Shown: positions 1,676 to 16,122 of the stretch, one piece after another
Layout: the number at the start of each line of letters is the position of its first letter
How positions within the stretch are numbered: the first letter of the stretch is position 1
Source of the DNA: Sebaldella termitidis ATCC 33386
GTDB taxonomy: Bacteria; Fusobacteriota; Fusobacteriia; Fusobacteriales; Leptotrichiaceae
Assembly: GCF_000024405.1 (NCBI RefSeq)
Contig: NC_013517.1
Span: 3,999,989 to 4,063,988, forward strand
DNA length: 64,000 bases
Direction of reading: 5' to 3'
The notes under the pieces: generated by a model
What the model was told of the DNA's origin: nothing
What the model saw: the letters and a program-made list of their open reading frames with translations, nothing else
Database searches by the model: none
Translations under genes and position numbers: made by a program

Positions 1676-3655
1676 TTATCCTTTTATTTTATTAACGATT
1701 TTTTCTACTGTAAATCCATATTCTTCTATTACTTTTCCTGCCGGTGCTGATGCTCCGAATGTATCTATTCCTATTGCCAGTCCGTCCATTCCTACATATT
1801 TATGCCATCCGAATGTCGATCCCATCTCAAGTGATACTCTGTTTCTTACTCCTTTTGGAAGGATACTTTCCTTATACTCACAGCTCTGTCTTTCAAAAAG
1901 CTCCATACTCGGCATACTTACTACCCTTACTGATTCTCCTGCTTTTTCCAGTTCCTTTGCTGCTCCCACTGCCAGAGATACTTCTGATCCTGTTGCTATT
2001 ATTATTCTTCCAAAATCTTTGTTTGTCTCGTAAGATACATATGCTCCCTTTGCTACATCTTCCATTGACGAACCTTCTGTTACATCCAGATTCTGTCTGC
2101 TTAATACTAAAAGTGTCGGTGTCTTCTTACTTTCTGCAGCTACCTTCCATGCTCCCTGTGTTTCTCTGCTGTCTGCTGGTCTTATTACATTTATATTCGG
2201 AATTGCTCTTAAACCTGCAAGCTGTTCTATCGGTTCATGTGTCGGACCGTCTTCCCCTACTGCTATACTGTCATGAGTAAGTACATAAGTTACCGGTAAT
2301 CCCATTAATGCTGATAATCTTATTGCTGCCTTCACATAGTCACTGAATACAAAGAATGTTCCCCCGAATGTCTTCAGTCCTCCGTGTAATACCATTCCGT
2401 TCAGTATCGCTCCCATTGCAAATTCTCTTACTCCAAACTGAATATTTCTGTTTTCTCTGTGCTCTGCGTCAAACAGTCCTTCTCCTTTTATCATTGTCAT
2501 ATTTGAATGTGCTAAGTCTGCCGAGCCTCCTATGAAATTCGGTATCTGTCCTGCTATTGCATTTATCGCATCATTTGATGCATTTCTTGTTGCCTGTGAA
2601 TGTCCTGCTTCATATGCCGGGAATTCTATCTTTATATTATCAAATAATGTTCCTGCCGCTATTTCTTCTATCTCTTTTCCCAGCTCAGGATATTTTTCCT
2701 TATACTTTCCTACAAGGGCTTTCCATTCCTCTGACTTTGCTGTTCCTCTTTCTGCTACTGATTTCTTATAGTCCTCATATACCTCTGCCGGAACTTCAAA
2801 TGCTTCATAGTCCCATTTCAGATATTCTCTTAATCCTTTTGTTTCTTCTGCTCCCAAAGGTGCCCCGTGTGAACTGTTCTTTCCTGCTTTTGTCGGTGCT
2901 CCGTATCCTATTACTGTTTTTATCTCTATTAATGTCGGCTTTGTTACATCTTTCTTTGCTTCTTTTATTGCCGCATCTATTGCTCCAAGATCATTGCCGT
3001 CTTTTACCGTTAGTACCTGCCAGCCGTAAGCTTCATATCTCTTAGCCACATCTTCTGTAAATGTTTCTCTTGTTTCACCATCAAGACATATATCATTGGA
3101 ATCATAAAGTACTACCAGTTTCCCCAGCTTCTGTACTCCTGCAAATGAACTTGCCTCTCCGCTCACACCTTCCATAAGATCTCCGTCTCCGCAGATTACA
3201 TATGTAAAGTGATCTATTATATTCATATCTTCTTTATTATATTTTTTCGCAAGATGTGTTTCTGCCAGTGCCATTCCCACTGCTGTGGCAATTCCCTGTC
3301 CAAGGGGACCTGTTGTCGTGTCCACTCCTTTTGTATGTCCGAACTCAGGATGTCCTGGTGTCTTAGAACCCCACTGTCTGAAATTCTTTATGTCTTCCAT
3401 AAACACATCAAAACCGCTTAAATGTAATAATGAATATATTAACATCGATCCGTGTCCTGCTGACAGTACAAATCTGTCTCTGTTCAGCCATTCAGGTTCT
3501 TTTGGATTCACGTTAAGGTGTTCGCTCCAAAGTGTGTACGCCATAGGTGCCGCACCTAATACTATTCCGGGATGTCCTGACTTTGACTTCTCTATCGCAT
3601 CCACTCCCAGCATTCTTATTGCATCTACTGACAATTGTTTTACATTTTTTTCCAT
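1676..3655 (-). CDS. tkt: transketolase
   Basis: Transketolase, a TPP-dependent cytoplasmic enzyme moving two-carbon units between ketose and aldose phosphates in the pentose phosphate pathway. At 659 residues it is full length. Visible landmarks are the substrate histidine in SGHPG (His28), GPLGQG near 116-121, the TPP/Mg motif GDGDLMEG at 156-163, the catalytic glutamate in FGVREFAMG near 410, and [15 protein letters not shown] near 473. It is the last gene of a unit with a SorC regulator and GutM, 25 nt after gutM. That context suggests induction with the upstream sugar-alcohol genes, though it could also be the general housekeeping transketolase. A terminator follows closely. Confidence 0.96.
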
Positions 3656-3680
3656 TTAGCCATCTCCTCTTTTCCTTTTT

Positions 3681-4055
3681 TTAGTTTTCTTCTTTATTTT
3701 TCAAATTTCTTATCTGTTCTACGGCTGTTTTTATACTTTTTCCATATTTCTTATCTGTGTAAGCTTTATTATAAAGATCATCAATATTTTCTCCCAATAT
3801 TTCGGACAAATCCTTGAATCTGCTGAAAGTGCTGAATCCTCTCATAATTTTGCTGTCTATAACTGTCCCGCCTGCATCGGAACACAGTATGACGGCACAG
3901 CCTGAAAAAGCTCCCTTTGCCACGCCGAATCCTACATCTCCTTTTTGCCTTAATTCTATCAGCATCTGGGTATAATTTTTGGACTGCAGATATATAAAAT
4001 ATCTCTGAAGTGCCATGGCTATTACCACAAGTATTATTATATAAATATAATTCAT
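3681..4055 (-). CDS. gutM: glucitol-operon activator GutM/SrlM family protein
   Basis: A 124-residue protein with an N-terminal membrane segment (residues 3-17) and a cytoplasmic part containing KGDVGFGVAKGAF, the hallmark of the GutM/SrlM family. In enteric bacteria GutM activates the glucitol PTS operon together with a repressor; how it works is poorly known. It lies 3 nt after the SorC regulator and 25 nt before transketolase. Its presence links this distal unit to the glucitol-type PTS genes about 8 kb upstream, though the sugar need not be sorbitol. Confidence 0.85.
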   Translation of the reverse strand: MNYIYIIILVVIAMALQRYFIYLQSKNYTQMLIELRQKGDVGFGVAKGAFSGCAVILCSDAGGTVIDSKIMRGFSTFSRFKDLSEILGENIDDLYNKAYTDKKYGKSIKTAVEQIRNLKNKEEN

Positions 4056-4058
4056 AGT

Positions 4059-5024
4059 CTATTCACCTTTTTCTATATAGTTTTCTATCTCCTTAGCAAT
4101 ACTGTAGTTAGTTACCAGTACATCCAGAAATTTACCGTTCAATGCACCAATTACCGCATCTGTCTTTTCTACTCCTGCTGCGGCTCCGATTACTGTTCTT
4201 ATTTTCTTCAGATCATCAAGCTCTATTCCTATAACTCTTTCATTAAATTCAAAATTGTAATTTTCCCCGCTTTTATTGTAGAACTGCAGACATATATCCC
4301 CCACTACATTATTCTGCTTAAACTCTTCCAGCTCTGTTTTATTAAAATAGCCTGTTTTCATCATTGTAGACTCCTGACTCAGCGGTGTTCCTATTCCCAC
4401 CATGGCAATATCGCATTTTTTTCCGTATGAAATTATATCTGAAATATTTTTTTCTTTCAAAAATTCATTTTTTATCTCTTTTTTGGAAACAACTGCCGGT
4501 GCATGAAGAAGCTTAAATTCCCCTCCGTATTTTTTTACAAAATCAAGAACAATATCATTCGGATGTATTTCCTGCTGTATTTGTCCGGTTCCTCCTATCA
4601 GCGGAAGAAACGTAAGATTCAGATTCTGCCTTTTAGTTACATAATCCACTACGAGTTTTATTGTAGTTCCCATAGAAAAGCCTATTATATTATCTTTTTC
4701 AAGGACTCTGTCAAAATATTCCGCAGCAGCTTTTGCCACTTCCTTTTTTTGGATATATTCATCATTTTCATCAGGCACTATTATTACTTCCCTGAGTTCG
4801 TATCTTTTTTCCAGCTTTTCTGCAAGGTCAAAATAGTCATTGTTAAAAGGGTTTACAAGTTCCAGTTTTACTATCCCCTGTTCTTTTCCTCCTTTTAGAA
4901 GTCTTGCCACTGTTGGTCTTGATATCCCAAGGATTTCAGCTATCTCATTCTGTGTATAGCCTTCTTCATAATATAATTTGCATGTCTTGTATATCATTGC
5001 TAATTCGTCTGTTATTTTTTTCAC
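4059..5024 (-). CDS. SorC-family sugar-responsive transcriptional regulator
   Basis: A 321-residue SorC/DeoR-type regulator. Residues 23-42 form a winged-helix recognition region (YTQNEIAEILGISRPTVARL). The remainder is the sugar-phosphate sensing domain with the segments IGFSMGTTI, LPLIGGTGQI and VGIGTPL typical of SorC proteins. Translation is likely from GTG with GGAGG six bases upstream. A perfect TTGACA-N17-TATAAT promoter precedes it with a 14-bp palindrome at the start point, so autorepression is likely. Related palindromes flank the promoter of the PTS operon, making this the probable local regulator. Its effector is unknown, expected to be a phosphorylated sugar or polyol. Confidence 0.9.
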   Translation of the reverse strand: MKKITDELAMIYKTCKLYYEEGYTQNEIAEILGISRPTVARLLKGGKEQGIVKLELVNPFNNDYFDLAEKLEKRYELREVIIVPDENDEYIQKKEVAKAAAEYFDRVLEKDNIIGFSMGTTIKLVVDYVTKRQNLNLTFLPLIGGTGQIQQEIHPNDIVLDFVKKYGGEFKLLHAPAVVSKKEIKNEFLKEKNISDIISYGKKCDIAMVGIGTPLSQESTMMKTGYFNKTELEEFKQNNVVGDICLQFYNKSGENYNFEFNERVIGIELDDLKKIRTVIGAAAGVEKTDAVIGALNGKFLDVLVTNYSIAKEIENYIEKGE

Positions 5025-5093
5025 ACTCTACCTCCAATTAGCTACAAAGCTTGTATTTTTGACTTAGTATGCATTTATCTTTTGTTCTTATGC

Positions 5094-5107
5094 ATTACAT
5101 ATGTAAT
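5094..5107 (-). promoter_or_regulatory. candidate SorC operator at its own promoter
   Basis: ATTACATATGTAAT is a perfect 14-bp palindrome lying at the expected transcription start of the sorC promoter. Three sites before the PTS operon (16059-16072, 16149-16162, 16395-16408) share its core ATNTGTNN with ACA or GCA in front. Location and symmetry suggest a repressor site; the binding protein is inferred. Confidence 0.6.
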
Positions 5108-5108
5108 C

Positions 5109-5137
5109 ATTATATAGCTTATTTTTTCATTTGTCAA
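5109..5137 (-). promoter_or_regulatory. sorC-gutM-tkt promoter
   Basis: On the minus strand TTGACA (5132-5137) and TATAAT (5109-5114) are separated by 17 bp, a perfect sigma70-type consensus. It drives the SorC regulator, GutM and transketolase. Confidence 0.85.
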
Positions 5138-5295
5138 ATAATAAAACTACCAATCTTTAGCTATTGATTTTATATCTGTTACTTTTCCGGTGTGTTAGGG
5201 ATATATTATTTTTGTTGTACAGCCTGATATGCTTTTGACAGAAGACGGAACGGAAATCTTCATGTAATTTCCGTTTATCTTCTTTATTTACAGCC

Positions 5296-6285
5296 TTAAA
5301 TAATTACATCCAAAATTTCTTCTTCAGAAAATCCTGAGAAATATTCACTAACATTTACTGTCTTCAAATATTCCGCTATTTCACTTATCATATATTTTTT
5401 TCCTTTCAAGCCACTTTCCAAATCTTCTATTTCCCTGCTTGAAAAGAAATCTCCATATAGTTTTATATTTTCTATAAGTCCGTCTTTTAATTTTATATAG
5501 CTTTCTACCTTTCCGGCAGTATATTTTCTCTGTCTGTGAATGTCCGCTTCAGGTGATTCGCCATAATTCCATTCCCATTTGTCATATTTTTCTTTTTTCA
5601 GCTTCTCTATCTCTTTTTTGTCATTTTCAGTAAGAACATACTCCTCAAATTCTTCCATTCTGTTTTTCATATGTTCAAATAAGGCAACTTTAAAATCTGA
5701 AACTTCCTTTATCTTACTGTCTTCCCCTATATAATCCTTTATGTTGGCTACCCTGCTTTTTATTGATTTCAGACCCTTTGATTCGATTTTATCCTTTGAT
5801 ACCTTCAAACTGTTTACCAGCTCTTCCATTTCGCTGTTAAATAATAAAGTTCCGTGATGCAGAATTTTTTTCTTAAAAATATATTGGGCATTTCCAGAGA
5901 ATTTTTTACCATCTATTGCCAGATCATTTCTGCTGTTAAATTCCGCTTTTATTCCTAATTCACCCAGAAGATCAACTATAGGTCTTGTAAAAAAGCTGAA
6001 ATCAAAATCAGCAAGATCCTTTTTTTCCTGTATAAAAGAAAAATTTATATTTCCCAGATCGTGATAAACTGCTCCTCCTCCTGACATACGTCTTACTACA
6101 TGTATTCCCTTTTTTTCCACATAATCAAGATTAATTTCAGATATGGTATTCTGGTGCTTTCCTATTACTATAGTAGGTTCATTCTGCCATAAGAAAAAAT
6201 ACTCGCCGTCAAGATTTTTCAGCACATACTCTTCAAGTGCAAGATTATATCTGGGGTTATTATTTTCATTAATTATATATTTCAT
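5296..6285 (-). CDS. lplA: lipoate-protein ligase A
   Basis: Attaches lipoate through lipoyl-AMP to a lysine of lipoyl domains. The RRMSGGGAVYHD motif (residues 65-76) and the catalytic lysine in GKKFSGNAQ (Lys128) are clear, and a C-terminal accessory domain gives a typical length of 329 residues. I chose the ATG at 6285 (MKYIINENNN), which has GAGG six bases upstream, over an ATG 18 bases earlier with no such site. It lies just downstream of the E2 and E3 genes, both of which have a lipoyl domain, so it likely lipoylates that complex. A terminator and an extended -10 promoter separate the two, so it can be transcribed independently. Confidence 0.93.
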   Translation of the reverse strand: MKYIINENNNPRYNLALEEYVLKNLDGEYFFLWQNEPTIVIGKHQNTISEINLDYVEKKGIHVVRRMSGGGAVYHDLGNINFSFIQEKKDLADFDFSFFTRPIVDLLGELGIKAEFNSRNDLAIDGKKFSGNAQYIFKKKILHHGTLLFNSEMEELVNSLKVSKDKIESKGLKSIKSRVANIKDYIGEDSKIKEVSDFKVALFEHMKNRMEEFEEYVLTENDKKEIEKLKKEKYDKWEWNYGESPEADIHRQRKYTAGKVESYIKLKDGLIENIKLYGDFFSSREIEDLESGLKGKKYMISEIAEYLKTVNVSEYFSGFSEEEILDVII

Positions 6286-6447
6286 TCCGGACCTCTTTTC
6301 CATTATCTAAATTTATATATAAAACAAACAGGATATCCAGTCTGTTAACGATATTCTGCCGGACTGTCCTTCTTTATTTTATACATCGATTTACACAGAT
6401 ATTCAGAATAATTTTCTGTTTCCTAAAAATATACATAATACTAGAAA

Positions 6448-6458
6448 ATTATAGCATA
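6448..6458 (-). promoter_or_regulatory. candidate extended -10 promoter for lplA
   Basis: Reading minus, TATGCTATAAT contains a TGN-TATAAT extended -10 element about 160 bases before lplA. No good -35 is seen. It lies downstream of the E3 terminator, supporting a separate lplA transcript. Confidence 0.45.
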
Positions 6459-6572
6459 GAAACTATAAAACTATATTTAAAATAAAAAATTTTCTGCATA
6501 ATATTTTATTATATTCTGAATCTGTATTAGACAGATTTCTCCAAACCCTTTATTTCACAATACTAAATTCTA

Positions 6573-6628
6573 AAAAAAACAAGGAACTCATACAAAATTT
6601 ATTTTTATTTTGAAGTAGTCCCTTGTTT
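6573..6628 (-). terminator. terminator after the dehydrogenase-complex operon
   Basis: Arms AACAAGGGACT and AGTTCCTTGTT (one bulged base) enclose an AT-rich loop and are followed, in the minus direction, by eight T. It ends the E1-E2-E3 unit. Confidence 0.8.
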
Positions 6629-6653
6629 ATTATTTATATGAATGGGGAATTCA

Positions 6654-8342
6654 TTATTTTTTCTTCGGCAGATGAAGAGCCTTTCCAAGACAGTCAGCAC
6701 ATGCCTCCAGTATTGCTTCCGAGAATGTAGGGTGCGCATAGATCAGCTCTGAAGCTTCCTCTATTGTTATCTCCATTTCCATCAAGATTACTCCCGCACT
6801 TATCATCTCTGTTGCCTTACTCCCTATTACATGCACTCCCAGTATCTCTCCGTAATTATCATCACAGATTACCTTTACAAATCCTTCTTCCTCACTTGAA
6901 GCTATCGCTCTCCCGTTGGCTCCAAAGTTAAATCTTCCTGTTCTTATCTTTCCGTATTTCTTTAACGCTTCTTCTTCTGTCAGTCCCACTGATGCTATCT
7001 CTGGAAGAGTATACACACATTTCGGCGTATTATCCAGTCTTACCTCTTCTCTTCCTCCCAGTGCATTTCCTGCTGCCGTTTCTCCCATCTTAAAGGCTGA
7101 ATGGGCTAACATCGATAATCCATTTATATCTCCTGCTGCATAAACTCCCGCTATACTTGTTTCCATATATTCATTTACTATAAGCCTTCCTCTGTCCTGC
7201 TTTATTTCCAATCCATCCACACAGCTTAGGTCTGCCTCTCTTCCTATTGAGAAAAGTACATAGTCGCTGCTTAAGCTCTCTCCGCTCTTTAATACTGTCT
7301 CTATCTCTTTTCCCTTATCCTTAAATCCTGTTACCTGTTTATCTGTCAGAAGCTTTATCCCTTTTTTCTTAAATATCTTTTCCAGCTCCTGTGATATCTC
7401 CTTATCATTGAAAGGTAAAAGGTTTGACATTGCTTCCACTATTGTTACTTCTGTTCCGTATCCTCTGAATATCTCCGCAAACTCACAGCCTATTACTCCT
7501 CCTCCGACTATAACCAGTCTTTCAGGTACTTTATTAAGGTCTAGTATCGTTGTACTTGTCAGTATCTTATCACTGTCTATTCCGGGTATATTCAGATATC
7601 TTGTTTTTGATCCTCCTGCAAGGATTATCTTCTTACCTTTCAGTACCTGTCCGTCTTCCAGTGTTACTTTCTTTCCTTCTCCAAGCTTTCCTGCTGTACT
7701 GTATACATCTACGCCGTAGCTTCTCAGCAAGCCTCCCACTCCCTGTGAAAGCTTCTTTGTTACCTTATTCTTAAATTCCACTGCCTTTGTCAGATCTGAT
7801 ATATTCTTTGTTACCTTTATATCCAGTCCTCTTGACTCTGCTTTTTCTGCTTCTTCCAATATTTCTATATTCTTTATATATGTTTTGGTAGGAATACAGC
7901 CTCTGTTCAGACATGTTCCTCCAAGCTCTCTTTTTTCTACTAAAGCTGTTTTGGCTCCAAGCTGGGATGCCTTGTTGGCTGATATATATCCTGCCGGTCC
8001 TCCGCCTATTACTATTACATCATATTCTTTTTCATCTGATGTCTTTGTTTCGGTCTTTACTTCCTCTTTCTTTTCTGCTTCTTTTACTTCGCTTACACTT
8101 TCTCCTTTTTCTCCAATATAGCCTATTACTGTAAATACCGGCAGTACTTCATTCTCAAATCTTACTTTCTTTAGAAGATAACCCGAGCTCTCGGCTTCTA
8201 CCTCCATATTTACTTTATCTGTCAGTATTTCGACTATTGGTTCCCCTTCTTTTATGGCTTCTCCTTCTTCCTTCAGCCACTTTATTATAGTTCCTTCTTC
8301 CATTGACATTCCTGCTTTAGGCATTATTATTTCTACTGACAT
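6654..8342 (-). CDS. acoL: dihydrolipoyl dehydrogenase (E3) with an N-terminal lipoyl domain
   Basis: FAD enzyme that reoxidises the dihydrolipoyl group of the E2 partner with NAD. At 562 residues it exceeds the usual 470 because residues 1-80 are a lipoyl domain with the lipoylated Lys43 in TDKVN, followed by a charged linker. Next come the FAD fold (VIGGGPAGY, 112-120), the redox disulfide Cys144/Cys149 in GGTCLNRGCIP, an NAD fold (VIVGGGVIGCEFAE) and the C-terminal His-Glu pair in AHPTFSEA. The lipoyl domain is almost the same as that of the adjacent E2, indicating domain duplication. E3 with a lipoyl domain is known from acetoin and some pyruvate dehydrogenase complexes. The acoL symbol is by resemblance only. 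Confidence 0.93.
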   Translation of the reverse strand: MSVEIIMPKAGMSMEEGTIIKWLKEEGEAIKEGEPIVEILTDKVNMEVEAESSGYLLKKVRFENEVLPVFTVIGYIGEKGESVSEVKEAEKKEEVKTETKTSDEKEYDVIVIGGGPAGYISANKASQLGAKTALVEKRELGGTCLNRGCIPTKTYIKNIEILEEAEKAESRGLDIKVTKNISDLTKAVEFKNKVTKKLSQGVGGLLRSYGVDVYSTAGKLGEGKKVTLEDGQVLKGKKIILAGGSKTRYLNIPGIDSDKILTSTTILDLNKVPERLVIVGGGVIGCEFAEIFRGYGTEVTIVEAMSNLLPFNDKEISQELEKIFKKKGIKLLTDKQVTGFKDKGKEIETVLKSGESLSSDYVLFSIGREADLSCVDGLEIKQDRGRLIVNEYMETSIAGVYAAGDINGLSMLAHSAFKMGETAAGNALGGREEVRLDNTPKCVYTLPEIASVGLTEEEALKKYGKIRTGRFNFGANGRAIASSEEEGFVKVICDDNYGEILGVHVIGSKATEMISAGVILMEMEITIEEASELIYAHPTFSEAILEACADCLGKALHLPKKK

Positions 8343-8361
8343 ATTATTCCTTTCTATCCTA

Positions 8362-9690
8362 TTATATTAACAGACTATAAGGGTCTTCTATTAATTTCTT
8401 TACATACTGCATAAACTCTGCTCCAAGTGCTCCGTCTATTACTCTGTGATCAAATGTTGCACTAAGGTAAATTACTTTCTTTACTGATATTTTTCCTGCT
8501 TTTGCCACAGGCTTTTCTTCTATTGTTCCTACTCCTATTATACAGCTGTTTGGCTGGTTTATTATCGGATTAAAGTAATGAACTCCATACATTCCAAGAT
8601 TGCTTAATGTTATTGTACTTCCGCTCTGTTCTGCTGCTCCCAGTTTTCCTTCTCTTGCTTTTTTGATCAGATCTTTTCCTTCTGTAAGTATATTTCTTAT
8701 TCCTTTATCTTCTGTATTCTTTACTACAGGCACCATTAATACCCCGTTCCCTGATACTGCAAAGCCTACATTTATCTCTTTATGACAAAGGATTCCTTTA
8801 TCTGTTAATGATACATTTATATCCGGGTATTTTCTTACTCCTCTGCTTACTGCCAGAATAAGAAGATCATTTATTGTCAGCTTTTCTCCTGTTTCATCCA
8901 TCAGCGGTGCGGCTATTTTATCTTTCAGTTTTAGTAATTTATTTACTCCTACTTCTATATTAAGTGTAAATGTCGGTGCTGAGAACTGACTTTCTGTCAT
9001 TCTGTCCCCTATTACTTTTCTTATTCCTGAATATGGTTTCAGCTCTGCTTCTTTTGATATTATTTCCGGAGCTGCATTAAGAACAAGATCTCTTTTGAAT
9101 ATCTTTCCTTTTGCTCCTGTTCCGCTTATACCGTCCAGGTCTATTCCTTCCTGTCCTGCTATTTTTCTTGCAAGAGGAGTAGCCTTTACTGTACTTCCTG
9201 CTGCGAAGCTTTCCACATCTGCAAGCTGGACTCTTCCTTTCGGTCCTGAGCCTGGTATATCCCCGAGGTTCAGATTATTATCTCTTGCTTTCTTTCTTGC
9301 TGCTGGTGTTGCCCTGTTTAGTTTATCTGACTGCATAAGAGATTTATTAAAGAAGACAGAGTTTTCTTCTGTTTCCTTTTTGTCAGGTTTCTTTTCATCC
9401 TTGATTACTTCCGCTGTTTTGGCTTTTTCTTCTCTTTCACTTACGGTTTCACCTTTCTCACCTATATATCCTATTACTGTAAATACCGGCAGCACTTCAT
9501 CTTCAAATCTTACTTTTTTTATCAGAAAACCTGAGCTTTCAGCCTCTACTTCCATATTAACCTTATCTGTTAATATTTCTACTATAGGCTCCCCTTCTTT
9601 TATTTCATCTCCTTCACTTTTCAGCCATTTTACTATTGTTCCTTCTTCCATTGACATTCCTGCCTTTGGCATTATTATCTCTACTGACAT
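8362..9690 (-). CDS. acoC: dihydrolipoyl acyltransferase (E2) of an acetoin-dehydrogenase-type complex
   Basis: Core of a 2-oxo-acid/acyloin dehydrogenase complex: its lipoyl arm carries the acyl group from E1 to coenzyme A. Order of domains in 442 residues: lipoyl domain (1-80, Lys43 in TDKVN), charged linker, two consecutive peripheral-subunit-binding motifs (around 128-160, TPAARKKARDNNLNL, and around 172-205, TPLARKIAGQEGIDL), then the catalytic domain ending with FDHRVIDG (His415, Asp419). Two subunit-binding domains in one E2 are unusual. It sits 39 nt after E1 beta and 19 nt before E3. Substrate specificity lies in E1 and is not certain; acoC is by resemblance. Confidence 0.92.
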   Translation of the reverse strand: MSVEIIMPKAGMSMEEGTIVKWLKSEGDEIKEGEPIVEILTDKVNMEVEAESSGFLIKKVRFEDEVLPVFTVIGYIGEKGETVSEREEKAKTAEVIKDEKKPDKKETEENSVFFNKSLMQSDKLNRATPAARKKARDNNLNLGDIPGSGPKGRVQLADVESFAAGSTVKATPLARKIAGQEGIDLDGISGTGAKGKIFKRDLVLNAAPEIISKEAELKPYSGIRKVIGDRMTESQFSAPTFTLNIEVGVNKLLKLKDKIAAPLMDETGEKLTINDLLILAVSRGVRKYPDINVSLTDKGILCHKEINVGFAVSGNGVLMVPVVKNTEDKGIRNILTEGKDLIKKAREGKLGAAEQSGSTITLSNLGMYGVHYFNPIINQPNSCIIGVGTIEEKPVAKAGKISVKKVIYLSATFDHRVIDGALGAEFMQYVKKLIEDPYSLLI

Positions 9691-9729
9691 GTTTCCTCCT
9701 TCTTAGAAAGTTCTAAAAGCGGTTTTCTT

Positions 9730-10713
9730 TTATTTTCTGTTCATTGCCTTATATATTGCTTCTGTTATATCTTCCTTACTTGGTACTACATAGGCTTCCA
9801 GCTTAGGGTTATATGGTATAGGTGTATTTTTTCCCGAAAGTCTTATTATCTCTGAATCAAGATAATCAAATGCTTCGCTTTCCACTACTTCTGATACTAT
9901 TTCCCCTGCATAGCTTCCTCTTTTTACCGCTTCATTAACTACTATAAGTCTTCCTGTTTTGATTACAGAATTCTTTATTGTTTCTATATCAAGAGGTACA
10001 AGTGTTCTCGGATCAATTACTTCTACATCTATTCCGTCTTTTGCTGCTTCTTCTGCTGCTTCAAGAACTCTCGGAAGCATTCTTCCATATGTAACTACAG
10101 TAACATCTTTACCGGTTCTTTTTATATCAGCAACACCTAAAGGGATAGTATATTCTTCCTCAGGTACTTCGCCTTTTGTTCTGTACAGAAGCTTCTGTTC
10201 CACGAAGATAACAGGATTATTATCTCTGATAGAACTTTTTAGAAGACCTTTTACATCATAAGGTGTAGAAGGTGCAACAACTTTCAGTCCCGGAATATGA
10301 CAGAACCATGCTTCCAGACTTTGTGAATGCTGGGCGGCAGCTCCTGTACCTGATCCTGCAGGACATCTTAATACAAAGGGAACCTGTGCTTTACCGCCGA
10401 ACATATATCTCATTTTAGCTGCCTGGTTAACAATGGCATCCATAGCAATAGTAGAAAAGTCCATAAACATAAGTTCTGCTATTGGTCTCATACCTGTAAC
10501 TGCCGATCCAGCAGCAGCACCGGCAATAACTGCTTCAGATATCGGAGTATCTCTTACTCTCTCTTCACCGAATTCATCTATCATTCCTACAGATACACCA
10601 AAGGCTCCGCCGTATATACCTACATCTTCCCCTAACAGATATACATTTTCATCCCTTCTCATTTCTTCCGACATAGCTTCTCTGATTGCTTCTGCATATG
10701 TTATTTCTCTCAT
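9730..10713 (-). CDS. acoB: TPP-dependent dehydrogenase E1 beta subunit
   Basis: Beta subunit of a heterotetrameric E1 (327 residues, the usual length). It has the transketolase-type pyrimidine-binding domain ([20 protein letters not shown] with the conserved glutamate near 59; ELMFMDF) and the C-terminal transketolase domain ([27 protein letters not shown]). The pattern is closest to acetoin/pyruvate dehydrogenase E1 beta. It is separated from E1 alpha by about 250 bp containing a tandem 106-bp repeat, which is unusual for subunits that need equal expression. A CCTCC-complement ribosome binding site directly precedes the start. Confidence 0.93.
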
Positions 10714-10724
10714 TTTTTTCCTCC

Positions 10725-10936
10725 TAGTGTTTTGTCTAACTTAATTTCAAAAAACATAGACCTCTTAATGTCAAAACACTTGTGCCCCAAGCTGACTCTC
10801 ATATTTTAAAATACAGATAAGGCAGGGTGCTAGTGTTTTGTCTAACTTAATTTCAAAAAACATAGACCTCTCAATGTCAAAACACTTGTGCCCCAACCCG
10901 ACACTCATATTTCAAAATGCGGATAAAACAGGGTGC
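10725..10936 (-). repeat. two tandem 106-bp repeats between the E1 alpha and E1 beta genes
   Basis: Copies at 10725-10830 and 10831-10936 match over nearly their whole length; I see only about ten substitutions. Each contains the inverted arms AGTGTTTTG and CAAAACACT about 35 bp apart, so each can form a stem-loop in RNA. A diverged relative lies at 14565-14640 and similar arms occur at 26843-26889. No ORF spans the repeats. They may affect processing or stability of the mRNA between the two E1 genes, but that is inference. Confidence 0.85.
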
Positions 10937-10961
10937 TTGTGTTCTTGCTTACTTTTTATGC

Positions 10962-11924
10962 TTAATCAGCATATACATCAGTCAATGCTGTTTCCAATTC
11001 AGGATCAGGTGAATTATTAGCAAATTCCACTGCCTTTTCTATATCTGCCTTAGCCTGTTCCTCTATTGCAGTTAATTCCGCCTCTTTAAATATTTTTTCG
11101 CTTACAAGATACTTTTTCATTCTTTCTATAGGGTCCTTTGATTTCCAGTCCTCTATTTCTTCCTTTGTTCTGTATACATTGGCATCACTCTTTGAGTGTC
11201 CGAGCCATCTGTAAGTTTTGCTTTCCACAAGTACAGGTCCGTTTCCTTCCCTTACATACTTAAATATTTCAAGCATTTTATCATAAAGTCCCACAGCATC
11301 ATTTCCGTCAACTATATGTCCGGGAATACCGTAGCTTGATGCTCTGTCTGCGATATTTGTAATATTCATGTGTCTTTCCATTGACATAGACATACCGTAA
11401 AGATTGTTTTCGCAATAAAAGATAACAGGAAGCTTCCATATCGATGCCAGATTAAGAGCCTCATGAAAACTGCCTTCATTAGCAGCACCATCCCCAAAAA
11501 AGCAAAGTACAATTTTTCCTGTTTTTTTCATTTGCTGTGTTAATGCAGCACCTACCGAGAGACCATGTCCTCCACCCACTACACCGTTAGCTCCGAGATT
11601 TCCAGAATCAATATCGGCAATGTGCATAGAACCGCCTTTACCTTTACAGTAACCCGTAGCCTTACCAAGAAGCTCGGCCATCATTTTATTAAGGTCTACT
11701 CCTTTACCTATTACCTGACTGTGTCCTCTGTGTGTAGAAGTAATTAAGTCGCCGTCTTCAAGTGCCATGCAGGGAGCTACTCCCGAGGCTTCCTCACCCA
11801 TAGAAAGGTGTGTAGTTCCGTGAACCATTCCTCTTGAAAAGAACCATGATACTTTTTGTTCAAAGGCTCTTGCCTCATTCATTCTTTTGTACATTTCTCG
11901 ATATGTTTCTTTTTTTACTTTCAT
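10962..11924 (-). CDS. acoA: TPP-dependent dehydrogenase E1 alpha subunit
   Basis: Alpha subunit of the E1 component, which binds TPP and cleaves the substrate next to its carbonyl. It has 320 residues with GGSMHIAD near 97-104, the TPP/Mg motif GDGAANEGSFHEA (GDG at 144-146) and the partner asparagines in CENNLYGMS (173-174). The family covers acetoin, pyruvate and branched-chain dehydrogenases; the short length and the accompanying E3 with a lipoyl domain favour the acetoin type. Acetoin is a methyl acyloin, so another methyl acyloin such as a 1-deoxy-ketose phosphate is a reasonable alternative substrate here given the PTS and DRL-like neighbours. Confidence 0.92.
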   Translation of the reverse strand: MKVKKETYREMYKRMNEARAFEQKVSWFFSRGMVHGTTHLSMGEEASGVAPCMALEDGDLITSTHRGHSQVIGKGVDLNKMMAELLGKATGYCKGKGGSMHIADIDSGNLGANGVVGGGHGLSVGAALTQQMKKTGKIVLCFFGDGAANEGSFHEALNLASIWKLPVIFYCENNLYGMSMSMERHMNITNIADRASSYGIPGHIVDGNDAVGLYDKMLEIFKYVREGNGPVLVESKTYRWLGHSKSDANVYRTKEEIEDWKSKDPIERMKKYLVSEKIFKEAELTAIEEQAKADIEKAVEFANNSPDPELETALTDVYAD

Positions 11925-12062
11925 TTCTCTCTCTCCTTTGCTTTTTCATTCTTGAATTCCCACTTTTAACCGATACTTATTTTTACACAGACTTTCCCCT
12001 GATAAAACCCGGATTAAAAGAGAATATTTAAGAAGGAAAATCCTAAAAAGTTATTTTTATTG

Positions 12063-12335
12063 TTATAAATAACGGATCACTTCTTCACATACTGTTTTAA
12101 TCCCGTTTTTTGTTTCTATTTCATTTCCTGATACCACGGGTACCTTTGTTTCTATATGGTTTTTACCTAATATTACTATTACGTCGGGAATCTTTGTTTC
12201 CTTATTTATTTCGTATACATTTCTCCCTCTTACTTCCACATCTATATTTCTTCCTCTGCAGTATTCCGATATTGTCTGCATTGTATAATTCATTTTTTTG
12301 ACAGATACCCCTGCTGCCACTAATACTTTTTTCAT
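12063..12335 (-). CDS. GatB-like PTS IIB domain protein lacking the phosphoacceptor cysteine
   Basis: A 90-residue protein that aligns by eye to galactitol-type PTS IIB proteins: an opening strand KKVLVAAG, a helix with ISEYCRGRNIDVEV, and the ending PVVSGNEIETKNGIKTV. In GatB the residue after VA is the phosphorylated cysteine of the ACGG motif; here it is alanine (VAAGVS). The only cysteines (CRGR and VCEE) are in positions not used for phosphotransfer. It leads the E1-E2-E3 genes and has a strong GGGAGG ribosome binding site. It might be a sensor, a structural partner of the PTS or a relic. Family assignment is by fold pattern, not by a search. Confidence 0.65.
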   Translation of the reverse strand: MKKVLVAAGVSVKKMNYTMQTISEYCRGRNIDVEVRGRNVYEINKETKIPDVIVILGKNHIETKVPVVSGNEIETKNGIKTVCEEVIRYL

Positions 12336-12427
12336 ACTATTTCCTCCCGAGCTCAGTATATATTTATGATATTTTTCTTTCCAATAATAACCCGTTTAAT
12401 ATAATAATTTTTTATTTTCTTTGAAAC

Positions 12428-12478
12428 AAAAAGAGTATCCGGAAATTAAATTTTACTTTTTATTCCAATACTCTTTTT
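12428..12478 (-). terminator. terminator after the PTS genes
   Basis: Arms AAAAAGAGTAT and ATACTCTTTTT, extended by TGGAA/TTCCG with a bulge, form a stem followed in the minus direction by CTTTTTG. It divides the PTS unit from the dehydrogenase-complex unit, possibly allowing partial read-through. Confidence 0.75.
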
Positions 12479-12483
12479 ATTTA

Positions 12484-12515
12484 CACAGACTCATAAATTT
12501 CCATATGAGTCTGTG
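12484..12515 (-). other. perfect inverted repeat just upstream of the terminator
   Basis: CACAGACTCAT and ATGAGTCTGTG are perfect 11-bp arms with a 10-bp loop, between srlB and the terminator. There is no T tract, so it is not itself a terminator. It may protect the 3' end of the PTS transcript or bind a regulator. Confidence 0.6.
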
Positions 12516-12571
12516 CTTTCTGTAAAATTTAATTTTCTACAATTTGTCTTAATAATTTTTCTATATAAATA

Positions 12572-12928
12572 CTATTTAAAACTTATATAATCTCCTATTT
12601 CAATCACCGGATGATTTTCTCCTGCAAGTTCGATCTGTCCCGGAACTTCTGCTTCAGACTTCCCTGTGAACTTAAATGTACAATGTCCCAGTTCTTTCAG
12701 AGTAAGCATAGCTTCTGTTCCTACAGCCGTTACTTTATATCCGTGTTTCCCGAGAATTATTTCATCTCCGACTTTTATATCTCTTTTTATTTCACCTTCT
12801 TCGTGCAAAACAGCTATTTCAGCCAGTTCCTCAGGTGCTATATCATCAAATATTATCAAACATCCGCATTCCTCGTATAATTCCATTGCGCTCATTCCGA
12901 TTTTGTTAACCTTAACGTTATAATTCAT
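12572..12928 (-). CDS. srlB: glucitol-type PTS enzyme IIA
   Basis: IIA component of a glucitol/sorbitol-family PTS (118 residues). It receives phosphate from HPr on a histidine, here His42 in AEIAVLHEEG, and passes it to the IIB domain of SrlE. The later motif GKHGYKVTAVG is typical of the family. It follows srlE by 17 nt. The family is known for sorbitol, but members also transport other polyols, so the substrate is left open. Confidence 0.9.
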   Translation of the reverse strand: MNYNVKVNKIGMSAMELYEECGCLIIFDDIAPEELAEIAVLHEEGEIKRDIKVGDEIILGKHGYKVTAVGTEAMLTLKELGHCTFKFTGKSEAEVPGQIELAGENHPVIEIGDYISFK

Positions 12929-12945
12929 GTACCTTTCCTTTCCGA

Positions 12946-13956
12946 CTAAAATAATCCTATACTTGCTATATAAGCCAATACTACAGACAGCGGACCGGTT
13001 ACCAGTCTTGAGAACAGTATTGCAGGTACCCCTACTTCTATTGTTTCAGCTTCTGCGTCTCCCAAGCTTAGTCCTACCGGTATAAAGTCACATCCTACCT
13101 GTGGATCAATAGCGAACAGTGCCGGTAATGCCAGTGATGCCGGTATAGTTCCAAGACCTATCTGAGTTCCTACCAACACTCCTACTACTTGAGCTATAAC
13201 AGCTCCCGGACCTAATAATGGTGAAAATACAGGTATTGCACATATTATGGAAATTATAAGCAGTCCTATCATATTTCCTGCAAGCGGAGCAAGTTTGTTA
13301 GCTATGAAATCTCCTATTCCCGTACCCAGAATTATCCCTATTAGCATACTTGTAAAAGCCATAAACGGTAATATATTTTTTATTACAGTTTCTATTACTT
13401 CTCTACCTGATTGATAGAAAACAGCAATTACTCCGCCTGTAGCTTTTCCAAGTCTAGTCAGAAAACCTTCTTTTTCATACTTCGTATCTGCCAGCTTTTC
13501 TCTTGCTTCTTTTTTCAGTGCTTCACCTTTCTGCTTATTTGTCATTCCTTCCATAGCATCAGTTTCCGCAGCTGCAGTTACTTCTCCTTCTTCTGCAAGA
13601 GTTACGTTTTTATCTTTTACATCTGATACGTAAATATCTGAAGTTATATACTGCGCCAATGGACCAGCCTGTCCCACAGGCATTACATTTATAGTAAATA
13701 TTCTTTTCTTTGGATACACGCCGCATCTTGCTGTTCCGCCGCAGTCTACTATTACCACCATTATTTCATCTTCAGGTACTCCCGTAACAAATCCGTTAAC
13801 TATCTCGCAGCCAGTCAGTTCAGCCAGTTTATATGCTAAAGGATGAATTGTTTTCCCGGTTATACTTACTATCTTATTCTTTTTTTCAGTAGGAGTGATA
13901 ATTAACGGACCACCCCATCCATTCGGACCTTTTTCTATTTTTACCGCTTTATACAT
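12946..13956 (-). CDS. srlE: glucitol-type PTS enzyme IIB plus IIC1
   Basis: A membrane protein fusing the cytoplasmic IIB domain with part of the transport channel. The phosphoacceptor region [15 protein letters not shown] contains Cys72 and Cys78; after about residue 165 there are hydrophobic transmembrane segments (for example [20 protein letters not shown]). I chose the ATG at 13956 (MYKAVK) because GAGGAGG lies six bases upstream; an earlier GTG overlaps that site. The sequence overlaps the end of srlA region closely, so the two are translationally coupled. Together with SrlA and SrlB it brings in and phosphorylates a sugar alcohol. Confidence 0.92.
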
Positions 13957-13967
13957 ACTCATCCTCC

Positions 13968-14519
13968 TCACCCAGCTTTAGCTACTTTTTTAGATTTTCT
14001 ACCCATTAGTATAAGAGTTATTCTTTCTGTCAATACTCCTCTTATGAAAATAACCAGTATCCCCACAAGGAAATATCTTGTTGCAAGACCTGCTATTGGA
14101 AGCCCTAACTGTGTTATCCCGTTTGCGATTCCCATATAGACAAACAGCTCTCCTGCATTAGCATGCGGGAATAAACCTGTCACCGGGTGAACAAATGAAA
14201 CTGCCGAATCATAAAATGCCGGTTTGTACTTTTCTTCAACGAATTTCCCAAAAGTGTAACACATTGGGTTAGTTAAAAATAATACTGCTAATATTGGTAG
14301 TAATGTATATCTTGTAATTATATTCTTAGATGCCCATCTAGCTGCTGTATTTACCCTTTCTTCCCCGATTAACTTTATAACAGCCGTTATTCCTGTCATC
14401 AATACCACAAGTAATGGAATTATTCCTGAAACCCAGCCGGCAAATACTTCTCCGCCTTGTTGGAACAAACCTATAAAGTGCGTTGCGATTTTTGATATAA
14501 AATCGATAATACCAAACAT
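13968..14519 (-). CDS. srlA: glucitol-type PTS enzyme IIC2
   Basis: Membrane subunit of the glucitol-type PTS (183 residues) with several hydrophobic segments, including [20 protein letters not shown] and [18 protein letters not shown]. The charged stretch [15 protein letters not shown] between segments is typical of SrlA. Its stop lies 11 nt before the chosen srlE start. It follows the DRL-like oxidoreductase gene after a 218-bp gap that holds a diverged copy of the 106-bp repeat. Confidence 0.92.
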
Positions 14520-14564
14520 CCTAAACCTCCTATATTTTTAATTACTAGTTTCTGCATGATTAAA

Positions 14565-14640
14565 ATTTCAAATATCAATGCCAAAACACCTGTACCCTGT
14601 TTTATACCCCAGTTCAAAATTATAGCAGACAAGGTACTAA
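14565..14640 (-). repeat. diverged copy of the 106-bp repeat before srlA
   Basis: The segment TCAATGCCAAAACACCTGTA and its right-hand flank align with TCAATGTCAAAACACTTGTG and flank in the tandem repeats at 10725-10936, with more substitutions and no clear left arm. It lies between the oxidoreductase gene and srlA. Confidence 0.55.
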
Positions 14641-14737
14641 AATTCAGATCCTCTTTTATGCACTAAGATTTTTACTGTATCTTTACAGATACATTTTCCG
14701 ATAAAATTACAAGAATTTATTTATTCCTTTCTAAAAA

Positions 14738-16030
14738 TTAACCAAATAATTTGTCCTGTACTCTTCTTAACTGCAGTATGAATGAACTTTCATCAAGCTC
14801 TACCATATCATAAGTTATTACTTCACCTTTTTTAACATCTTTTACCAGCTTTGTTTTTTTAGTTATCAATCCTACAGGAAGTGCGTTCATTTCTTTTGCT
14901 GTTTCATATACTTCCACCGAACCGTATACTGTATATCCTCCGATTCCGTCTAAGTTTTCTCCTGCTTTAAGATCTTTTTTAGCTATTGTAATTACTTCTG
15001 AAACAAGTCCTCCCATTGGTGCTATTGTAGCTTCATGGTCTATTACTGCTTTTGCAGCTGATAATGGTGTTTCAAGACTGCACAGGTGATATGGTCTGTA
15101 TAAGATGTAGTTCGGCCCGTCTCCCATGTCCAGATATTTCATCTCTTTTCTTACTTCCTCCAGTTTGCTTGATACTACTACGAATACTCCTGGTGCTATT
15201 CCGTCTACGAAATCTACTACACCGTATTTACTAAGTATTCCTCCTTCTTCTTTCAGACTGAATACTTTTGGTACATCATTTACTTCACCTTTTATTCCGT
15301 GTGCTCCTCTTACATCAGGTATATATCCTGTAGAATTTGACATTACTGCTAATTCAACCATTGTTTTACTTCCTTCTTTAAATGAAGCAAGCATATGTGC
15401 ACTGACTCCTCTTCTTTCAGCTTCTTCGGCTACTGTATCAGGATTACAGTCTTTATCAATTTTATTATTTTTTCCTTTTCCTATTACTCTTACATCGAAT
15501 CCTGCTGCTTTTGCAAAATCATATAATTCTTTTGTTGCTGCAGGTTCGTCTCCTGCTGCTCCTGTATAAACTACTCCTGCATTATCAGCCAGTTTTTTTA
15601 ATAATGGTCCGATAACTACATCAGTTTCAGCATTCAACATTACTAAGTGTTTTTTACCCATGATAGTATCAAGTGCTATCTTAGCCCCTACTTCTGTTAC
15701 TCCTGTTGCTTCGATCAGAACTTCTATTTTTTTAGAATCTGTTACTACTTTCGAATCATCTGTTACAACAAAGTTTCCTTGTGCTATCCATTCATCAGCT
15801 TCACATGAGCATTTTGTATACTTTATTTTATCTTCGCTCACTCCTGCGTGCAGTAAAGCTTTTTTAGCCAGCTCTGTATTTATATCCACTACTATTGCAG
15901 GATTCATTCCTTCCATAAGATACATTTGGCTTACCATTCCCTGACCCATTTGTCCTGCACCTATTATTCCTGTAAGTATTGGTGTTCCGGCTTTCTCAAG
16001 CTTTTCCAGCTTATAGTTCAATCCTAACAT
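14738..16030 (-). CDS. DXR-like (DRL family) SAF-domain NAD(P) oxidoreductase
   Basis: A 430-residue oxidoreductase with a homoserine-dehydrogenase-like NAD(P) fold (IIGAGQMGQGM at about 22-32), a central catalytic domain (TGAAGDEPAATKELYDF; GKGKNNKID) and a C-terminal SAF domain (about 353-430, with VKKGEVITYDMVELDESS). This architecture is that of the DRL family, whose Brucella member converts 1-deoxy-D-xylulose 5-phosphate to 2-C-methyl-D-erythritol 4-phosphate; many paralogues have unknown roles. The start at 16030 has AGGAGG six bases upstream; an earlier in-frame ATG has none. It is the first gene of a PTS operon that lacks a sorbitol-6-phosphate dehydrogenase, so it probably oxidises the phosphorylated polyol. 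Confidence 0.75.
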   Translation of the reverse strand: MLGLNYKLEKLEKAGTPILTGIIGAGQMGQGMVSQMYLMEGMNPAIVVDINTELAKKALLHAGVSEDKIKYTKCSCEADEWIAQGNFVVTDDSKVVTDSKKIEVLIEATGVTEVGAKIALDTIMGKKHLVMLNAETDVVIGPLLKKLADNAGVVYTGAAGDEPAATKELYDFAKAAGFDVRVIGKGKNNKIDKDCNPDTVAEEAERRGVSAHMLASFKEGSKTMVELAVMSNSTGYIPDVRGAHGIKGEVNDVPKVFSLKEEGGILSKYGVVDFVDGIAPGVFVVVSSKLEEVRKEMKYLDMGDGPNYILYRPYHLCSLETPLSAAKAVIDHEATIAPMGGLVSEVITIAKKDLKAGENLDGIGGYTVYGSVEVYETAKEMNALPVGLITKKTKLVKDVKKGEVITYDMVELDESSFILQLRRVQDKLFG

Positions 16031-16094: not shown

Positions 16095-16122
16095 ATTATA
16101 CTTCATTTTTTACCATTGTCAA
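16095..16122 (-). promoter_or_regulatory. promoter of the DRL-PTS operon
   Basis: Minus-strand TTGACA (16117-16122) and TATAAT (16095-16100) are 16 bp apart. The 5' leader to the start codon is about 57 nt. Candidate operators lie on both sides. Confidence 0.85.

Follow-up and report, generated by a model that had tools for sequence, protein, structure and literature searches.

A DXR-II gene heading a glucitol-family PTS operon in Sebaldella termitidis suggests a catabolic route for a branched polyol

We found that a gene of the DRL (DXR-II) family heads a glucitol-family PTS operon, which also encodes a thiamine-diphosphate dehydrogenase complex (E1/E2/E3), in a 64,000-nucleotide stretch of the Sebaldella termitidis ATCC 33386 genome (the window; source assembly of 4.49 Mb in 3 contigs). 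We consider it somewhat likely that the operon serves the catabolism of a branched polyol, with 2-C-methyl-D-erythritol (ME) as the likeliest candidate and DRL running backwards. Our data establish what the genes encode, the retention of the DXR-II residues, the recurring cassette, an E1 clade of its own and the joint occurrence of this E1 with DRL. From the gene context we infer the catabolic role of DRL; which polyol is used, which way DRL runs and whether E1 acts on DXP are proposed in the same conditional sense. The DXR-II of this strain, the single Fusobacteria entry in a 2013 survey, was placed there in the functional DXR-II clade (PMC3847144); therefore, the protein itself is already known, and the new part is its operon context. 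That survey makes no mention of PTS operons (PMC3847144), and no published description of a catabolic DXR-II pathway was found in the literature searched.

The DRL gene is an open reading frame of 430 amino acids with its ATG at 16030, its stop at 14738 and an AGGAGG Shine–Dalgarno sequence ahead of the ATG. In an HMM search, the protein matched both the DRL catalytic domain (PF21135 DRL_cat, 217 bits, residues 160–321, profile positions 1–164 of 164; Pfam cut-off 27) and the SAF domain (PF08666, residues 349–411). The SAF score of 21.0 bits lies exactly at the curated Pfam cut-off of 21 and is marginal alone; the domain scored 24.2 bits in a separate search, and this C-terminal domain is backed by an end-to-end alignment to 3UPY. 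The N-terminal Rossmann NAD(P)-binding domain was recognized from GIIGAGQMG and the full-length 3UPY alignment, direct HMM matches being weak. The only PDB relatives were those of Brucella abortus DRL (3UPL/3UPY), which aligned over the full length (E 1.6e-94). The preliminary description had assigned the protein to the DRL family and had named the segment TGAAGDEPAATKE, which is present at residues 156–168; both statements agree with our results. Homoserine dehydrogenase, its proposed competitor, was rejected, as no such catalytic domain was found with Pfam and PRK06349 scored just 18 bits against a cut-off of 205. The Pfam, HMM and PDB matches likewise rejected a polyol dehydrogenase identity.

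We compared the window DRL with Brucella DXR-II at the residues that part DXR-II from DLO1/DLO2 and those that bind fosmidomycin (positions from PMC3847144, including K191, K193, T229, H250, R320, G121 and V351), and all 19 of the 19 checked positions were identical. In the DRL tree, which holds no DLO reference by name, the window protein shares a large clade with Brucella DXR-II. By these sequence criteria, 14738–16030 is DXR-II proper and not a divergent branch outside it. The retention of all diagnostic Brucella residues and the position in the DXR-II clade suggest that the enzyme probably catalyses the known DXR-II reaction in reverse and not a different one. A single-sequence DRL scan of genome contigs yielded four close relatives, and an AlphaFold2 model from a four-sequence alignment, with a mean pLDDT of 43, was uninformative.

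The genes are transcribed in the order DRL, SrlA, SrlE, SrlB, GatB-like, E1alpha, E1beta, E2, E3, LplA, SorC/DeoR-type regulator, GutM and transketolase (TKT) on the minus strand (Table 1). The complete promoter-like match upstream of DRL and the glucitol-family EII genes downstream support its earlier description as the first gene of a PTS operon. The operon is longer than had been described, since E1alpha, E1beta, E2, E3 and LplA, which had not been mentioned, also lie downstream; the E1/E2/E3 genes are the decisive neighbours of DRL. The regulator, GutM and TKT genes may form a separate transcript, as a second perfect promoter match lies before the regulator gene. A second Sebaldella assembly showed the identical gene order from DRL to LplA. 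No SDR gene, and thus no SrlD-type sorbitol-6-phosphate dehydrogenase, was found within 1676–16030, where every operon gene was otherwise identified. E2 and E3 have lipoyl domains that agree at 77 of 85 positions. In addition, a perfect 12-bp inverted repeat (CACAGACTCATA..TATGAGTCTGTG) occupies 12484–12515 between SrlB and the GatB-like gene and may be an operator, an attenuator or a processing site.

Table 1. Features of the DRL operon in the window.
Feature	Position	Strand	Evidence
Promoter-like site TTGACA-16-TATAAT before DRL, sigma-70-type	16095..16122	-	12/12 consensus positions; consensus match only; 65 bp upstream
DRL/DXR-II oxidoreductase, proposed MEP to DXP	14738..16030	-	PF21135 217 bits, PF08666 21 bits, 3UPY 1.6e-94, 19/19 residues
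SrlA-type PTS EIIC, glucitol family	13968..14519	-	PF03608 266 bits; NF049923 260 bits, cut-off 150
SrlE-type PTS EIIB/EIIC, glucitol family	12946..13971	-	PF03612, PF07663; NF049924 491 bits, cut-off 400
SrlB-type PTS EIIA, glucitol family	12572..12928	-	PF03829 125 bits
Small GatB-like protein, PTS IIB-like	12063..12335	-	Weak NF007643 match, 23 bits; conserved in Sebaldella only
E1 alpha, thiamine-diphosphate dehydrogenase, GHSKSD-loop type	10962..11924	-	PF00676 281 bits; clade and loop
E1 beta	9730..10713	-	NF006667 405 bits; tree
E2 dihydrolipoyl acyltransferase	8362..9690	-	Profile match
E3 dihydrolipoyl dehydrogenase with own N-terminal lipoyl domain	6654..8342	-	TIGR01350 509 bits
Lipoate-protein ligase LplA	5296..6303	-	TIGR00545 431 bits, cut-off 280
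Promoter-like site before regulator gene	5109..5137	-	12/12 consensus positions; consensus match only
SorC/DeoR-type sugar-binding transcriptional regulator	4059..5024	-	NF053881 247 bits (cut-off 420)
GutM-type regulator	3681..4055	-	NF007592 45 bits
Transketolase, possible pathway member	1676..3655	-	TIGR00232 946 bits; second copy at C1:1647289

We postulated a route from ME through 2-C-methylerythritol 4-phosphate (MEP) and DXP to glyceraldehyde 3-phosphate (GAP) and acetyl-CoA. The glucitol-family PTS would import ME and phosphorylate it to MEP, DRL would return MEP to DXP by oxidation, and E1/E2/E3, which is related to acetoin dehydrogenase, would split DXP into GAP and acetyl-CoA and yield NADH. 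LplA would provide lipoate, and the SorC-type regulator and GutM would govern the genes. DXR-II interconverts DXP and MEP, and the window DRL retains every diagnostic residue checked. DXP is a methyl-ketone acyloin, the substrate class of acetoin; therefore, acetoin-dehydrogenase-like cleavage would give acetyl-CoA and GAP. The reverse carboligation is documented: purified pyruvate dehydrogenase (PDH) yields 1-deoxyxylulose, and DXP is produced in vivo by aceE mutants of E. coli (PMC3424233). The ME pathway was proposed from this precedent together with DXR-II chemistry and the acyloin likeness of DXP. The reverse DXR direction needs removal of the product. ME is the least certain part of the pathway and C6 analogues are possible; a C5 substrate that gives GAP would not require TKT, whose presence may point to a branched C6 polyol.

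We gathered 95 DRL loci from Fusobacteriota, Bacillota and plasmids with a PF21135 search (one contig counted twice); the genome samples are phylogenetically uneven. Within 9.5 kb of DRL, SrlA/SrlE were found at 46 of the 95 loci and E1alpha together with E1beta at 28 of the 95, the latter in Fusobacteriota, Bacillota and Alphaproteobacteria. A SorC-type regulator was present at 39 DRL loci and the GutM family at 28. The gene order SorC-GutM-SrlA-SrlE-SrlB-DRL-E1a-E1b-E2-E3 was repeated in Bacillota, and DRL-E1a-E1b-E2 was contiguous on alphaproteobacterial plasmids. The plasmid hits include the rhizobia Sinorhizobium fredii NGR234 and Rhizobium sp. N324, and for N324 the genes flanking DRL were read. 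Most of the alphaproteobacterial cassettes came with one of two import systems, a glucitol PTS that includes ptsP or an ABC transporter plus a sugar kinase. At loci that lacked a PTS, a kinase (FGGY, PfkB or sugar kinase) often stood beside an ABC or MFS transporter, and the Priestia cassette carried an MFS transporter and an FGGY kinase. A kinase and a transporter in place of the PTS are what would be expected of a DRL that uses an imported compound after its phosphorylation, and an imported, phosphorylated substrate is the common denominator of the cassettes. Neither PTS, E1 nor a fructose-6-phosphate-aldolase-like gene (FSA) was found near DRL at 33 of the 95 loci.

Several arrangements stood apart from these cassettes. 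At loci L019, L208, L211 and L213, all on alphaproteobacterial plasmids, DRL was accompanied by GutM and by a complete glucitol-type PTS that includes ptsP for enzyme I, which is unusual for the class. In small Clostridia-class genomes, DRL lay near ileS and an FAD-dependent reductase in the absence of PTS, E1 or kinase (L083, L085, L091, L092, L094, L095, L097–L099, L102, L112 and L119); the proposed pathway does not explain the function of these ileS-adjacent genes. At 11 DRL loci (L017, L113, L114, L117, L118, L131–L134, L137 and L139), an FSA-like gene, sometimes with transketolase, replaced E1, and this subgroup suggests another fate or another carbon skeleton.

The same module may instead act on another skeleton in Sebaldella, a possible but rather unlikely alternative in which the PTS would import a different branched polyol (for instance, a C6 2-C-methyl-pentitol, or a hamamelitol-like or apiitol-like compound), DRL would make the matching ketose phosphate, and E1 (together with TKT/FSA in some genomes) would split it to an acyl-CoA and an aldose phosphate. 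The specificity of a Gut-type PTS is not readable from its sequence, and the TKT downstream in the window, along with FSA and TKT beside DRL in Ligilactobacillus and other loci, would suit tetrose or hexulose phosphates. However, most E1 cassettes lack TKT, and the diagnostic residues of DRL are those of an enzyme known for DXP/MEP.

Next, we assessed the identity of the dehydrogenase complex. In a concatenated E1alpha/E1beta tree, the DRL-linked E1 and the E1 found elsewhere in DRL-bearing genomes formed one clade (99/98 support). Among the sampled sequences, the nearest outsiders were acetoin dehydrogenases, which we recognized by AcoX, AcoR or butanediol dehydrogenase neighbours, and pyruvate dehydrogenase was remote. 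The E1alpha loop, which we take from human PDH E1 to belong to the active site, carried K/R in 31 of 31 clade members (GHS[K/R]SD or a close variant), whereas 8 of 8 acetoin dehydrogenases carried E (GHFEGD). At a second E1alpha position, a conserved F is changed to T in the DRL-linked clade. K/R at the place where acetoin enzymes have a negative charge would fit an anionic, phosphorylated substrate. An ordinary acetoin dehydrogenase was rejected on the separate clade, the GHSKSD loop and the lack of AcoX/AcoR in the operon; a pyruvate dehydrogenase was rejected on the loop, the remote tree position and scores below the cut-offs (TIGR03182, 357 bits vs 394; TIGR03181, 258 vs 411).

These results bear on the improbable alternative that DRL occupies the SrlD slot as a polyol-phosphate dehydrogenase for a linear hexitol or pentitol phosphate, with no rearrangement, beside an ordinary pyruvate or acetoin dehydrogenase. 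The operon indeed lacks an SrlD-type SDR, its PTS genes are of the glucitol family, and the homologous Listeria operon has been termed sorbitol metabolism (PMC11176438). However, the DXR-specific substrate residues are intact, and the E1 does not belong to the acetoin clade, is distant from PDH, has another active-site loop and is strongly associated with DRL.

This association was quantified in 299 Bacillota genomes, of which 32 encoded DRL and 18 the GHSKSD loop; 17 of these 18 also had DRL (Fisher p 4e-18, a value that ignores kinship). A nineteenth match to the GHSKSD DNA pattern (G621) contained a stop codon and was discounted as chance. Among 16 genomes with DRL and PTS that had no adjacent E1, 10 had an E1 of this type at another location, in most cases together with a SorC-type regulator, and 6 had none. 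These six genomes, together with the 33 loci without PTS, E1 and FSA, indicate that not every DRL belongs to this pathway. In two genomes (G732 and G755), the cassette E1alpha was the only full-length E1alpha.

The Sebaldella genome contains the E1a-E1b-E2-E3 block (~5.3 kb) twice, at 6657–11942 of the window and at 4314–9493 of a second locus (L188, G000:C1:29000-47000), in two different PTS operons. The copies share 99.8% DNA identity over 4.2 kb and 97.9% over a further 1.1 kb, which points to a recent duplication or gene conversion. The second operon comprises a galactitol-type PTS, an SDR and a class II aldolase that scored above the L-ribulose-5-phosphate 4-epimerase cut-off (258 vs 251). 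A small GatB-like protein, with no Pfam match, is encoded shortly before both blocks (9984–10256 in L188). A similar arrangement was found in C. difficile and another genome. The E1 clade also occurs in operons without DRL, so that it may have substrates other than DXP. A polyol dehydrogenase with a 4-epimerase could also give DXP or another 1-deoxyketose phosphate, and it is our speculation, consistent with gene content, that this clade may consist of phospho-1-deoxyketose dehydrogenases of general scope.

The sole member of the E1 clade from outside the DRL-sampled genomes came from a Clostridioides difficile plasmid (NZ_CP149721.1, loci L202/L207), where the E1 is accompanied by a SorC regulator, a sigma-54/PRD regulator, a galactitol-type PTS, a class II aldolase and LplA. 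Immediately downstream of this operon lie ispD-ispF and tRNA ligase genes, and the record resembles a chromosomal segment labelled as a plasmid. C. difficile is itself listed with DXR-II (PMC3847144).

It is very improbable that DRL is a second DXR that feeds MEP to isoprenoid synthesis and lies in an operon with sugar genes only incidentally: its diagnostic residues are retained and members of the DXR-II clade complement dxr-deficient E. coli (PMC3847144), but the genome also encodes a canonical DXR (474 bits), so that MEP can be made without DRL, the genes inherited together with DRL are those of PTS or kinase and E1 complexes and not isp genes, and Finegoldia and Anaerococcus have DXR-II with no other MEP or MVA enzymes found (PMC3847144). 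The canonical DXR and the embedding of the gene in a conserved catabolic cassette make a non-isoprenoid role of DRL probable. The earlier suggestion of a catabolic DRL branch with a function other than isoprenoid synthesis thus holds for the function, whereas the separate branch does not, as the protein is DXR-II proper.

DXR-II has so far been treated as an alternative isoprenoid enzyme, and its patchy distribution is puzzling, as some species have a canonical DXR and in others no other MEP enzymes were found. In our tree, Brucella DXR-II, represented by a single sequence, nests among alphaproteobacterial DRL proteins; of the nine others sampled in this clade, all from plasmid loci, eight are linked to E1. 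This nesting is expected if the isoprenoid role was recruited from a catabolic one. We therefore advance, more tentatively than the ME route itself, the idea of a widespread and undescribed pathway, in which E1 enzymes with the GHS[K/R]SD loop would be phospho-1-deoxyketose dehydrogenases (a new ThDP/lipoate activity), fed with DXP that DRL makes from the MEP of imported 2-C-methylerythritol, and elsewhere by polyol dehydrogenase/epimerase routes; Brucella DXR-II would be a catabolic enzyme recruited into biosynthesis. If so, a catabolic function would explain the patchiness of DXR-II and suggest the origin of the Brucella enzyme, and phosphorylated acyloins would be a new substrate class for dehydrogenase complexes of the acetoin/pyruvate type. 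It would also provide termite-gut, soil and rhizosphere bacteria with a route to consume methylerythritol, a plant polyol. Methylerythritol is close to the 2-methyltetrols of isoprene-derived aerosol.

Finally, we compared the Sebaldella system with known ones. Brucella abortus DXR-II (3UPL, 3UPY) has the same full-length domain architecture and diagnostic residues as the window DRL; however, it serves isoprenoid synthesis, whereas the Sebaldella gene sits in a PTS/E1 operon beside a genomic canonical DXR. The E. coli PDH that forms DXP (aceE suppressor mutants, PMC3424233) shows that a PDH-type E1 can handle the partial reaction of hydroxyethyl-ThDP, GAP and DXP. Unlike the step proposed here, that PDH has a homodimeric E1 and works in the opposite direction as a mutant or side activity. 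The glucitol/sorbitol PTS operon (srlAEB, gutM) shares SrlA, SrlE, SrlB and GutM family proteins with the Sebaldella operon, which has DRL and the E1/E2/E3 complex instead of a sorbitol-6-phosphate dehydrogenase and a regulator of the SorC type. The acetoin dehydrogenase complex (AcoABC, E3) has the gene set E1a-E1b-E2-E3-LplA in common with Sebaldella, as well as the acyloin-cleavage chemistry that we propose. Acetoin dehydrogenases are also the nearest E1 relatives, with 50–56% E1alpha identity for the closest of those linked to AcoX/AcoR; however, the Sebaldella E1 belongs to a separate clade, has GHSKSD and not GHFEGD, lacks AcoX/AcoR and is tied to DRL and sugar import.
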